Shown in pieces: positions 11,447-27,502 of a stretch of 64,000 nt of DNA. The notes below the pieces were generated by a model. The model did no database searches. It saw only the letters and a list, made by a program, of their open reading frames with translations, and was not told the origin of the DNA. Positions within the stretch are counted from its first letter, which is position 1. Each line of letters opens with the position of its first letter. Location: positions 372,001 to 436,000 of the forward strand of contig OZ017762.1 in the NCBI GenBank assembly GCA_963969365.1, written 5' to 3'. Source of the stretch: Asterochloris sp. CNOR1 (lineage: Eukaryota > Chlorophyta > Trebouxiophyceae > Trebouxiales > Trebouxiaceae). The position numbers were made by a program, and so were the translations under genes.

Positions 11447-14400
11447 CTAGCAGCGCCCCAGAAGTTCCCGCGCCTGCCGCGTCTGGCTGTGCGGCTCGCC
11501 CAGCTTGAGAATCGACAGGTAGACAGCCTTCTCCAACAGCAGCTTGGCCTCTGCCCTCTCCTGCTGCTCCAGCAGCACAGACCCCACGCCCATGAGGGCA
11601 GCTGCAGTCTCTGCATGCTGGGGGCCCAGCTGGGCTTCCCGGATCTCCAGGCATTGCCTGCACAGCTGCTCGGCTTCTGGCAGCTGCCCTAGCTGCTGCA
11701 GCAGGCACCCCAGGCCCAGCATGCTGGCGGCTGTGTCCAAATGGTCGCTGCCCAGATTCTTTTCCCTGCAGAAGGGGTGGCTCCTCAGGTATAGAAGCGC
11801 AAGGTTTGCTGGAGATCGTCTGATGGCAGAGGCCTGCGGTCAATATTCTTCTCGATGCAAGACTAGGCGTTTGATGGTCAGAGGTGCCAGCCTGTGTTGG
11901 GCAGCTATTCATGGAACTCCTGCTTGATGTACTGCCGGCTTGGCAGCCCTGCTGCCAGCATCCTTGTCATGTCCATGTAGATTGACAGATGCGATCTGCC
12001 AGCTGCATCTGATCTCAAGGCAGTGCCTGCAGGTCTCCTCCGTGGACTGCTGACATCAAGCATTGCAGCGTGCATGGTACGGGGCAGCTGAGGAGCCCAC
12101 CTAATCTCCAGGCAGCGCCTGCAGGCGTCCTCGGCGTCCTGCAGCTGCATGGTGTCCCGCAGCAGGGTAGCCAGGCTGCTCAAGCTGCTGGCCACCTGCA
12201 CGTCATCGGGCCCAAAGGCCTGCTCCCGGATGGCCAGACTCCTCCGTATGAGCCCCTCTGCCTCCTGAAAGCTGCAGGGTACCATTGATTGCTGTCAGCC
12301 CTCTGCCACTACACTTCCTCAAAAGCTGGGCCAGGCTGCACCTTATGAGCCTCTCAGCGTCCTCAAAATTGCAGGGCACTGTTGCTTGCTGGCGTCCAGT
12401 GGCCATCTCAGCAGGCCCACGGGCTTAATAGCATTTGGGGGGCCACCCCCCAGAGCATGTCCTTGAGCAAGTTGGATACCTGCTGTCAGGCCAGGGGCCC
12501 AGGTCCAAAGGCAGAGCTGGTTGCCCAGCCTAACGCTGAACCACAGGGGCCAGCCCCACCTGCTGAGTTCCTTGAGCACCTCTGACAGGGCCTGCAGGGC
12601 TGTCGCGACGTAGGGGCTGCTCCGCCCGCACTTGTGCTCGTATATGTCAAGCGCACGTCTGCACAAGGGCTCAGCCTCACCGGGCTTCCCCATGCCCCTG
12701 TACCAATTTTGAGCAGTTGGCATGGCCACCACTTTCAGACACGGAGTAAGTGCTTTAACAGGCCTCTGTGAGATAGAACCATGAGTAAGTGCTCCAGAAC
12801 CTGCCTGAATCACACAAGGCCTGAAGCAGCAGCAAGCTGCAGCTCTTTGCTGACAACATAAGCATTTGGTGATGCGGTTTGCAGGCACCTCCTGCTGTGA
12901 ACTGTAGGCTGCAAGGCACACAAGCACTTGGTGCGCACATGCACAGCATTCTTGCCGGTGTCCAGAGCAGATGCAGCAGCAGGCAGCTTTACCACCAGCC
13001 ATTGGCTGTCTGTTTATGGCAGCGGCCCCAGCATACACCAGGCTCATGATGGGTCTACAGTGGCAGGCTGACTCACCTGAGGCACTTGGCCTGCATGGCC
13101 AAGGCTGAGGCCACATTGACATTGTCCTCACCCATGCTCTGCTCTAGAATGCTGATGGCTGTGCGGCACAGCTGGCTTGCCTCCTCAAACCTGCAGCTCA
13201 ATTTTTGTCTGTCAACATGAAGGTGTGAGCTGCCGCATATGAGCTGACCGGCAAAACTGCTCTCAATGAAGCAAAAGGCACTCCATGGGGTGCAGCCAAT
13301 CAAAAAGGACTAGCCAGAGCCTGAGGCCAGCACGCTTAAGGAGGCTCAAACAGTGCACAGCAGCCACCCCGCCAAGAAGGCAGGCGGCATTCCAGGGTGC
13401 CATGTGTTGTGAGCGACTGTGTGTCGGGCACTGCTGCAAACAGCAGCCCTGTAGGCAGCACTACCCACCTGGCCACTTATTCAAGCATCAGGTCAGTCAG
13501 ACACTGCGCTGCCATGCAGATGGCGCCCAGGTCCTGGGCAGTCAGCACTGAGTTGCCATGCAGAGCACGAGAGAGCCATTTGCAGGAAGCACCCCACCTG
13601 CCCAAGTCCTTAAGCAGCTCTGCCAGGCACAGCTGTGCTCCCGACACGTCGGGGTGCTCAGGGCCAAAGGCTCGTTCCCGAATGTCAAGTGCCTTCATGA
13701 AATATGGCAGGGCCTCCCGCTGCCTACCCAGCGCTTTCAGCAGGCCTCCTAGGTTGACATAACTGGCAGCTACCTGCAGTGAGAAGAAGAGCAGCCTAGC
13801 AAGTTGCTTGCAGCATGCGCTGAGGTTTGACACTCAGCAGCCTGAGGGATTGACGCTCAGTGTTCACAAACTAGTGGCCAGGTCAACAGCGGAACAAGCA
13901 ATAAGAAAGGCAGAGCTCCTTGAACTGGCCCCTGCCACCTGAATAGCTTTGCATTCAGCATGACTTCACCTGGAGCGCCTGCACGTACGCAGGCTGCAGC
14001 ATTGAAGCCCATGCACGTCAGGTGCCCTTCCCATGCCAGCAAGGTGCAGCTGGCCTGCAGCATGGGCTCGCCTGGGGGTGGTCTGGCCCCAGTGCCTGCT
14101 CCCGAATGCTGAGGCTGCGGCGATAGAGCTCCTCTGCCTCCTCATTCTTCCCCATGCGCCGCAGCAGGGCAGCCAGGTTGTTTAGGGAGAGGGCAACCTG
14201 CAGCCAGCAACAGGTTTGCAGGTACCTGTCGCTGCAAGGGCTTACCGAGATGCTGGGTCAGAATTCCGTGTGCAGGGCAAGACATTCGGCTTGTTCAAGG
14301 AGGAGGCGACCTGCAGCAGCGCAACAGGGGGACTCCTGGGGCTTCAGAAAGCATGCAGGGATGGCAGGCACTCTTCTCAGGGAGAGGGCAATCAGCCTTC

Positions 14401-26400: not shown

Positions 26401-27502
26401 CAGATGATTGCTCCAGGTGTGCCCATCACCCACCAGGACGTAACCCCAGGTACATCAGCCTGCTGCTGCCAGGACACCTCAGCAGTCATGCATTCCCCTC
26501 ACCAAAAGAAGTCCGTCCTCTTCCAGTGCCACCATCTCCAGCTCTACCTCCTTCAAGCCTTTCAGGCCGCCCAAGGGCATCCCTGTGCCACTGCTGCTGC
26601 CATTGGCAACAAGTGAGACCACTCCATGGCTGGGAGCCCTGGACACGAGAGACCTCCGCCGCGAGTCCTATGACAGATCAAGGGATGGTGGCTCAGCCTC
26701 AGTATGCAGAGGAGCAGGCAGCATATTTACAGCAGGTGGTCTTGGTACTGAAAGTCCACCAGGCACATCTCCGCCACAGACAGAGGGACAGCTAGTTTGT
26801 GGAGTCAATCCTCCCCAGCAGAGATGTGATGCCACTGGCCTCTGCACTATTTCCCATGTGCCTGTTGAGGCAAAGACACACTGTCCAAAGACTTCAGATG
26901 CAGACCTTGGTGGTCAGTGGCGTCCTGCCCGGCTGGCTGTTTGCAAGCGCCTCCTGCGTCCTGGGGGACGGCAGGGAGCCATTCACAGGCGCTGCAGTGG
27001 CTGCCTGAGGTGGGGCAGCTGCCTCTGCAGCTGCTTTCTGCTGCGTCACTACATCGTCCCGCCGCCCTAACAGTTGCAAGCGATGCAGCGGGTTCTTGAC
27101 CCCAACCTGCTCAAGGAGAGCATCTGTCAGCTGGAGCAGCTCCCTACCAGTGGTTCCCTGCAAGCAGGGCACATGTTCCATGACACGGGCCGGGCGTCAT
27201 TACCAGTCATTGAGCTGCACGTGAGCCTGGGTTCATGAACCTGCCTTCAGAGTCTTTGTGTACTTGTGGCAGGACTCGTGCTTGGTAAGCCAAAGCTTGA
27301 CATCGTCAGAGCTCCAGGTGGCAATCGGTTTAGTGCCAAGATCAACCTCAGGGATTTCCTTCTTGCCCATCCAGCCTCGGGGTGTCTTGTCAGGTGCTTT
27401 GCATGCCAAGAAACAGTTTTGCCGACGGCCAGCAGCTGCATGCAACGAGGTGCCCAATATAGAAGCCAAAGTGGACATCCCAGGTTTGAATGCTGTAGCC
27501 AT
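11447..27502 (-). CDS. NLR-like STAND protein: SAM - four-helix bundle - CBL-type EF-hand - NB-ARC - TPR
   Basis: I assembled 27 exons with consistent phase, giving about 1506 residues. Exons: 27502-27245, 27157-26906, 26667-26503, 26027-25963, 25779-25710, 25485-25379, 24768-24651, 24571-24446, 23713-23526, 23217-23023, 22649-22565, 21905-21791, 20878-20595, 20015-19881, 19112-18952, 18486-18211, 17448-17226, 16867-16760, 16477-16291, 15861-15674, 14883-14713, 14197-14072, 13773-13598, 13190-13077, 12697-12560, 12271-12101, 11765-11447. Domains: SAM about 59-115 ([22 protein letters not shown]); helical bundle about 226-387 ([18 protein letters not shown]); CBL-like EF-hand about 388-515 ([15 protein letters not shown]); NB-ARC about 543-775 (Walker A GPPGAGKVS); winged helix about 775-867 ending YVMHPSIR; TPRs about 978-1506 (for example [19 protein letters not shown]). 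NB-ARC-TPR proteins are nucleotide-switch sensors; the N-terminal part would be adaptor and effector. Start Met is uncertain (27502, 27478 or 27553). GC donors are inferred after exons 1, 6 and 22. Two adjacent genes are possible but less likely, since phase links the EF-hand to NB-ARC. Confidence 0.78.
12235..12400 (-). repeat. Boundary echo: TPR exon 5' end
   Basis: The start of TPR exon 12271-12101, with its acceptor (about 12280-12235), has a diverged copy at about 12390-12345 in the upstream intron. Both read FEDAERLI- or [12 protein letters not shown]. In the echo the acceptor CAG has become CAA. Confidence 0.75.
14440..14500 (+). other. G-rich tract inside an NLR intron (G-quadruplex candidate)
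   Basis: Several runs of four to nine guanines occur within about 55 bases on the plus strand. The tract lies in the intron between TPR exons 14883-14713 and 14197-14072 of the minus-strand NLR-like gene, so the transcript strand is C-rich. Confidence 0.6.
17098..17255 (-). repeat. Boundary echo: exon 17 3' end of the NLR-like gene
   Basis: The end of exon 17448-17226 (ELLQWAIQ plus donor, about 17255-17218) has a diverged copy at about 17135-17098 in the following intron, reading KLLQWPIQ. The echo has lost the GT donor. Confidence 0.75.
18952..19375 (-). repeat. Triplicated acceptor plus exon start in the NB-ARC region
   Basis: The start of exon 19112-18952 (CTGCAG acceptor, then [20 protein letters not shown]) occurs two more times upstream at about 19235-19155 ([20 protein letters not shown]) and, more decayed, about 19370-19255. 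Only the copy at 19112 continues in frame and phase with both neighbours. Confidence 0.8.
21890..22106 (-). repeat. Boundary echo: acceptor of the P-loop exon
   Basis: Sequence around the acceptor of exon 21905-21791 (about 21895-21925) has a close copy at about 22074-22104 in the upstream intron. Confidence 0.65.
22915..23050 (-). repeat. Boundary echo: EF-hand exon 3' end
   Basis: The end of exon 23217-23023 with its donor (WALS, GTGAGG) has a diverged copy at about 22945-22918 in the following intron, with the donor GT retained as CGTGAG. Confidence 0.65.
24370..24525 (-). repeat. Boundary echo: exon 8 segment of the NLR-like gene
   Basis: A segment of exon 24571-24446 (GLSALQHSS, about 24525-24478) has a diverged copy at about 24421-24375 in the following intron, reading LSPLQHSS. 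Confidence 0.65.

Follow-up and report, generated by a model that had tools for sequence, protein, structure and literature searches.

An NLR-like gene with a probable pseudo-NTPase core in the green alga Asterochloris sp. CNOR1

To our knowledge, little is known of the means by which algae perceive an intruder or a partner within their cells, and a gene whose domains follow one another as in an NLR raises the question of whether its product is a receptor switched by nucleotides. Such a gene lies in the window analysed here, a stretch of 64,000 nucleotides of the green alga Asterochloris sp. CNOR1 (contig OZ017762.1, C17:372001-436000, in a genome of 56.38 Mb and 21 contigs). The original prediction had read on it 27 exons keeping phase over about 1506 residues. 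A long, multi-exon and phase-keeping gene is indeed there, on the minus strand from 27502 to 11447, and it counts 26 hand-built exons and 1451 residues, with 0 internal stops.

The reading that we prefer, and in which our confidence is evenly balanced, is that of a selected NLR-like STAND protein serving as a scaffold, with a probable pseudo-NTPase core. The order helical region, EF-like region, STAND core, winged helix, arm and TPRs is read in the gene itself, and may be preceded by a SAM domain. What is new is this combination together with the worn switch, the component parts being of known kinds.

The TPRs, the STAND core and its switch residues

About eleven kinesin-light-chain-type TPRs had been announced at the C-terminal end, and they are found there, as Pfam TPR_10 matches 12 stretches (E 8.2e-106, 343.8 bits) and TPR_NPHP3 reaches 251 bits for a cut-off of 100 (E 1.1e-74). 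In the core, the Pfam scores stay below their cut-offs, with 27.3 bits for 32.6 in the case of AAA_16 (E 5.8e-6) and 13.6 bits for 23.5 in the case of NB-ARC (PF00931; E 0.041). The core is nevertheless homologous to a bacterial STAND-TPR protein, L128. L128 is a 661-residue STAND-TPR open reading frame of a Kouleothrix genome (locus L036), and it is the best match among 20 bacterial genomes picked from 79 TPR loci; at E 0.1, matches came from 6 of the 20 genomes, with 1.9e-4 as the lowest value. Among the 79 loci, a reading-frame screen kept 30, 2 of which have a GxGGxGKT P-loop before the TPRs, and a stricter filter left none.

Core, winged helix and TPRs are collinear with L128 (score 170 vs 44.6, standard deviation 5.5, over 300 shuffles; z 22.7). 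The nucleotide-binding (NB) part alone scores 106, which 0 of 1000 shuffles equalled, and the arm alone is weak (40 vs 29.0, standard deviation 4.4, over 300 shuffles, the best of which reached 47; z 2.5). Both the hand model and the decode described below place the NOD and the TPRs in a single reading frame. The NLR-like order of a STAND/NB-ARC-like core, a winged helix and TPRs is thus upheld by the Pfam TPRs and by the collinearity with L128. The same order of core, winged helix, arm and TPRs is met in the bacterial STAND-TPR or NB-ARC-TPR proteins of Kouleothrix (L128) and of Ktedonobacteria (L056 and L071), although the core of the alga hardly aligns with the latter two (phmmer E 0.25 and 2.6).

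Most of the residues of a nucleotide switch are lost in the algal protein. Its Walker A reads GPPGAGKV, across the junction of exons 11 and 12, where the splice sites are strong (8.6 and 8.7), and departs from GxxxxGK[TS]. The acidic pair of Walker B is replaced (LVVHCPPD), as are T[ST]R at the sensor position (VICASES) and the Pro at the GLPL position (GRALAA). In the five comparators (L056, L071, L128, L129 and L134), GKT, D[ND] and T[ST]R are each kept in 5/5, whereas the alga has none of them; LPL, also missing in the alga, is kept in 4/4 of those that reach that position, L134 being cut before GLPL. The algal protein thus differs from L128, L056 and L071, which keep all four motifs, both by their replacement and by an extra N-terminal part. 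Four other loci (L130, L132, L133 and L136), judged to be AAA+ or other ATPases, were excluded from the count. One of them, L133, may be a LuxR-type STAND and reads GKT, VVDD, AARTG and NPLAL; counting it would give T[ST]R 5/6 and LPL 4/5, with the Arg and the Pro still kept. No P-loop frame was found in L131 or L135, among the nine loci inspected. The change at the MHD position was not counted as a loss, since L056 and L071 read HR and L128 reads HD. The motifs can be aligned clearly at the P-loop, as they can from GLPL onward, and less so at Walker B.

When the roles of these motifs are read from the established knowledge of P-loop NTPases, ATP hydrolysis by the core appears unlikely, because the Thr/Ser of Walker A, the acids of Walker B, the sensor and the Pro of GLPL are replaced. 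The protein had been called nucleotide-switched; this finds no support, because the switch residues are replaced in the alga and kept in the bacterial comparators.

A second copy of the TPR end, detected with a 174-residue TPR query, lies inverted at C17:363-368 kb, about 4 kb to the left of the window. It covers that end only (exons 19 to 26, in part) and carries one-base deletions in exons 25 and 26. Between the gene and this copy, synonymous divergence (dS) is 0.159 and nonsynonymous divergence (dN) 0.064, a ratio of 0.40 over 282 codons from exons 21, 22, 24 (part), 25 and 26, with a Fisher p of 4e-4 on rounded counts. Identity is 91.9% in exons, 88.1% in introns and 80.7% in the 3' flank. 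Judging from these alignments, the copy is apparently dead, and the gene of the window appears to be constrained at its TPR end.

The gene model and its joints

With codon statistics drawn from predictions outside the window, the coding log-odds amount to +251 in frame; the two alternative frames of the strand give -646 and -604, and antisense gives -178 to -795. The chosen frame scores better than both other same-strand frames in 26/26 exons and is above zero in 23/26, exons 1, 7 and 10 being below. An ab initio decode of splice and codon signals returns a single gene at each of four intron penalties; from the mildest to the strictest, it recovers exactly 23, 22, 22 and 21 of the 26 exons, with 3, 3, 2 and 2 extra exons. 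At the mildest, exons 1 and 7 are missed, and exon 24 is wrong at its 5' end. On the same stretch, the decode score is 229.8 for the gene, 0 for the plus strand and 12.3 for the reversed sequence. As the decoder was bootstrapped from 28 window seed peptides, 24 of which come from this gene, the decode is a support rather than a fully independent proof. As a positive control, it returned the neighbouring beta-adaptin (948 residues, with Adaptin_N at residues 13-532 and the appendage), a region from which a few of the seed peptides also come. The TGTAA signals were uninformative for the gene model.

Two earlier outcomes were rejected. The first self-training of the decoder gave the window plus strand as one 201-exon gene, a drift that was cured by stricter penalties. 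The first two settings, without GC donors, gave a 960-residue gene ending near 14 kb and a second gene made of the last TPRs; these were joined to the gene on account of the GC donors and of the continuity of the TPRs. Over the 25 introns, the splice ends are GT-AG in 22 cases and GC-AG in 3. The GC donors follow exons 1, 5 and 21, which seems many, and the decayed copy reads Ala at the end of exon 21, pointing to a GC donor there too. The gene start is uncertain, exon 1 lying directly after the junction TGCAG/ATG, and an alternative Met is found at MGKKEIP.

Joining by the decoder alone proves little, because it fuses same-strand neighbours (a ceramide kinase with a mitochondrial carrier, a thioredoxin-like protein with WD40, a TPR stretch with ribosomal S21). 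A cut test was for this reason calibrated, on one gene (beta-adaptin) and two boundaries between unlike domains, which is a small calibration. To separate the EF-like region from the core, a cost of at least 13.4-15.4 nats has to be paid, as compared to 9.3-11.3 inside beta-adaptin and 0.0-2.3 at the boundaries between unlike domains. No break is therefore seen across 22-23 kb, where the original prediction had considered that separate genes might meet.

The SAM adaptor is recognised by Pfam SAM_1 above its cut-off of 23 bits, with 35 bits on spliced exons 1-2 (E 1.9e-8) and 31.2 bits in the whole protein. Its two exons are the weakest joint of the model, because the stricter penalties also drop exon 2: exon 1 is missed at 4/4 decoder settings and exon 2 at 3/4, namely the three stricter ones. 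The donor of exon 1 is moreover a GC (AAG/GCAGGT), with a splice score of -0.7. For a cut between the SAM and the helical region (after exon 2, at 26650), the cost is 0.2 with the milder penalty and 0.0 with the stricter one, and only the former value is informative, because the stricter joint model is already without the SAM exons.

A serious alternative, to which we give a little less credit than to its contrary, is that two genes are present, a short SAM protein (from 27502 to a stop at 26894) and a downstream STAND-TPR gene starting near 26.6 kb. The cost of the cut at 26650 resembles that of the boundaries between unlike domains, and reading through exon 2 gives TTKVCI and then a stop; on the other hand, the donor of exon 2 and the acceptor of exon 3 fit in phase 0 (scores 4.6 and 7.3), and the low-complexity stretch after the SAM resembles an internal linker by its sequence. 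The presence of two genes would be compatible with any of the readings of the protein discussed below. Another SAM was found in the same genome, on contig C1 (E 2.1e-9).

Table 1. Parts of the NLR-like gene, duplicated pieces and neighbouring genes (window positions, unless a contig is given).
Feature	Position	Strand	Basis or remark
Whole gene model	11447..27502	-	phase, splice scores, ab initio decode
Exons 1-2 (27245-27502, 26906-27157), SAM (residues 62-116) and low-complexity linker	26906..27502	-	Pfam SAM_1
Exons 3-7, alpha-helical region (residues 171-332), proposed four-helix bundle	24446..26027	-	frame, splice sites
Exons 8-9, 17-residue motif resembling the first EF motif of Cbl	23023..23713	-	local CBL match
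Exon 10, linker	22565..22649	-	coding score -0.5; recovered in 4/4 decoder settings
Exons 11-14, degenerate STAND NTPase core	18952..21905	-	AAA_16 and NB-ARC below cut-off; full-length match to L128
Exon 15, winged-helix domain, MHP where L128 has LHD	18211..18486	-	L128 alignment
Exons 16-17, arm linking the winged helix to the TPRs	16760..17448	-	16-residue stretch resembling LFDLERENIDTGWAWA of L128
Exons 18-26, kinesin-light-chain-type TPRs	11447..16477	-	Pfam TPR_10, TPR_NPHP3
Decayed partial copy of the TPR end, inverted, outside the window	L127:2738-7871 (C17:362738-367871)		
Duplicated start of exon 14	19054-19251 (possibly to ~19330)		
Intron sequences resembling decayed TPR exons	14277-14317, ~12345-12395		
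Beta-adaptin gene	27686-37603	+	
Model joining a TPR stretch (near 46546-46719) and a ribosomal protein S21 domain	37819-49713	-	
Ceramide-kinase-like gene and mitochondrial carrier	1448-11121		

The N-terminal region and the possible roles of the protein

For exons 3-7, an executioner-like four-helix bundle had been proposed. Exon 7 is the least certain of these exons, being missed at 4/4 decoder settings. The region shows an amphipathic helical pattern that fits the proposal (helical moment z 2.3), by a measure that discriminates poorly, as the SAM and the TPRs reach z 0.4 and z 1.0 despite their known helical folds. On exons 3-9, Pfam gives two chance-level names alone (E 0.18 and 0.098), NCBIfam gives nothing, and PDB sequences give chance-level matches alone, at E 0.19 and up; the MLKL, HeLo and RPW8 four-helix bundles have no Pfam, NCBIfam or PDB match. 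When the helical region is compared to the CBL 4H bundle, 433/1000 shuffles are as good, and the Pfam scan contains no Cbl_N match. As neither a family profile nor a sequence match was obtained, the executioner-like bundle is not confirmed, the helical pattern being all that fits it.

The signal of the CBL-type EF-hand is weak. The first EF motif of CBL and exons 8-9 have WxxxFGxxxxVPWxxF-like residues in common, to an extent equalled by 2/1000 shuffles, and 16/1000 shuffles are as good when bundle and EF region are taken together. By hhalign, the EF region and Cbl give a probability of 7.7%, with 1/100 shuffles as good. Of the two calcium-loop patterns of EF-hands that were sought, the protein contains neither. 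In a Cbl EF search, exons 8-9 are not among the best 11 of 7836 reading frames, and no SH2-like domain, the third part of the Cbl TKB, is detected at E up to 1 by Pfam (on the pieces, and among the best 25 of 28 families for the whole protein). When exon 8 is modelled alone, AlphaFold gives a single helix with three strands at pLDDT 58.5, an uninformative outcome that does not speak for the EF-hand. In the same genome, the EF region finds a single chance-level match (E 1.98, 33%), and no relative was confirmed among the pattern matches of viral_contigs (2) or of genome_contigs (39). One short motif thus survives of the proposed EF-hand, without calcium-loop residues and with a low hhalign probability, and the Cbl idea appears to be a fair lead for the N-terminal part.

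According to our preferred reading, the core would keep its fold without hydrolysing ATP, and the protein would be an assembly scaffold or a regulator rather than an ATP/ADP-switched receptor. By binding a partner, the TPR solenoid would set free the helical/SAM part at the N-terminus, and contacts of the SAM or of the helices could then drive clustering with other proteins. A role in cell death or in immunity is something that we only infer. Should this reading be true, the gene would be a selected NLR-like gene with a worn switch, indicating that a scaffold can serve without ATP cycling.

Several points weigh against this reading. Exons 1-2, with the SAM, may form a short gene of their own, the evidence of selection comes from the TPR end alone, and the placement of Walker B and of the sensor rests on divergent alignments. 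The glycines and the lysine of the P-loop are kept (GPPGAGK), and nucleotide binding without hydrolysis is possible, to judge from these residues. L128 is a chosen comparator, because it is the best match of the 20-genome search. Finally, it is in favour of the reading that no second match to the core or to the helical region was found in the genome, read in six frames without introns, but these searches score only the best candidates and could miss a diverged paralogue. The NB-ARC family search (5 candidates scored) returned nothing over E 0.001, because exons were scored singly. If the gene is the sole one of its kind in the genome, it would be a clean target for a single-gene knock-out.

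It is improbable that the protein is a working NLR-type receptor, in which the TPRs would sense a ligand, the NB core would switch between ADP and ATP, and a membrane-acting helical bundle would kill the cell. The domain order, the amphipathic helices of exons 3-7 and the kept lysine of the P-loop are all consistent with it, and, according to the available part of one study (PMC11218826), cell death follows in Nicotiana from the helical N-termini of NLRs, taken from non-flowering plants as well as from a streptophyte alga. Such a receptor is nevertheless difficult to reconcile with the loss of the switch residues, and with a bundle that is matched by no profile and resembles the Cbl 4H bundle at chance level. 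We also hold it for doubtful that the protein is a TPR scaffold like nephrocystin-3 or kinesin light chain, devoid of immune role, the STAND-like part of which would only hold the fold: TPR_NPHP3 is above its cut-off, TPR_10 matches and the NTPase is degenerate, but TPR_10, a general repeat model, scores higher than TPR_NPHP3, and the part from core to winged helix aligns with a bacterial STAND protein. There is, lastly, little chance that the protein is a eukaryotic pseudo-STAND, still under selection after the loss of its ATP switch, which assembles or kills through the SAM and a Cbl/MLKL-like helical module and has the ligand of its TPRs as sole trigger.

TPRs occur in fungal NLRs, and several known systems resemble the scaffold with a pseudo-NTPase core that we favour; they are compared here by description, from the available parts of the papers cited. 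The Ulva mutabilis protein UM014_0006.1 is, like the present one, an NB-ARC-TPR protein of a green alga, and what is available of its description (PMC8891106) speaks neither of a SAM nor of a helical part at the N-terminus. NLRs of the Cbl-N type are described in non-flowering plants (PMC11218826), in a study that follows the cell-death activity of CC domains as far as a streptophyte alga. They have a helical bundle before the NB core, as proposed in the alga, and are described as CC/Cbl-N, whereas the algal protein has TPRs, a SAM and no Cbl_N match. Putative NACHTs are reported in green algae (PMC4773052). The N-termini of fungal NLRs include MLKL/HeLo-like and SAM_Ste50p domains (PMC9815663); the alga, which belongs to another kingdom, differs from them by its EF-like motif and its degenerate core. 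In bacteria, inactive STANDs (iSTAND) have a STAND-like core judged to be catalytically inactive, as that of the alga probably is, and are parts of vWA-MoxR systems, unlike the algal protein (PMC7159879). No description of the present domain combination was found in the literature covered in part, subscription journals being mostly outside this coverage, and few green-algal NB-ARC proteins were found in it. The words NB-ARC and NLR are absent from the main text of two lichen-alga papers (PMC11126685 and PMC6652019).

Neighbouring genes and duplicated pieces

The host is photosynthetic, since rbcL is present on contig C21. The predicted start of the beta-adaptin gene is about 180 bases from the start of the NLR-like gene model. 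On its other side, this gene is followed by the minus-strand model that joins a TPR stretch to a ribosomal protein S21 domain and probably represents two genes; at the left end of the window, the ceramide-kinase-like gene and the mitochondrial carrier are fused by the predictor.

Traces of duplication are also seen within and around the NLR-like gene. The start of exon 14 and its acceptor are tandemly duplicated in the preceding intron (83% over 89 bases), and further upstream there may be a third copy, in a more advanced state of decay. In the TPR end, two intron sequences resemble decayed TPR exons, as if exons had been duplicated and then lost. Outside the window, other kinesin-light-chain-type TPR stretches are present at G000:C7:2218401 and C2:803334-804424, and are 35-44% identical.

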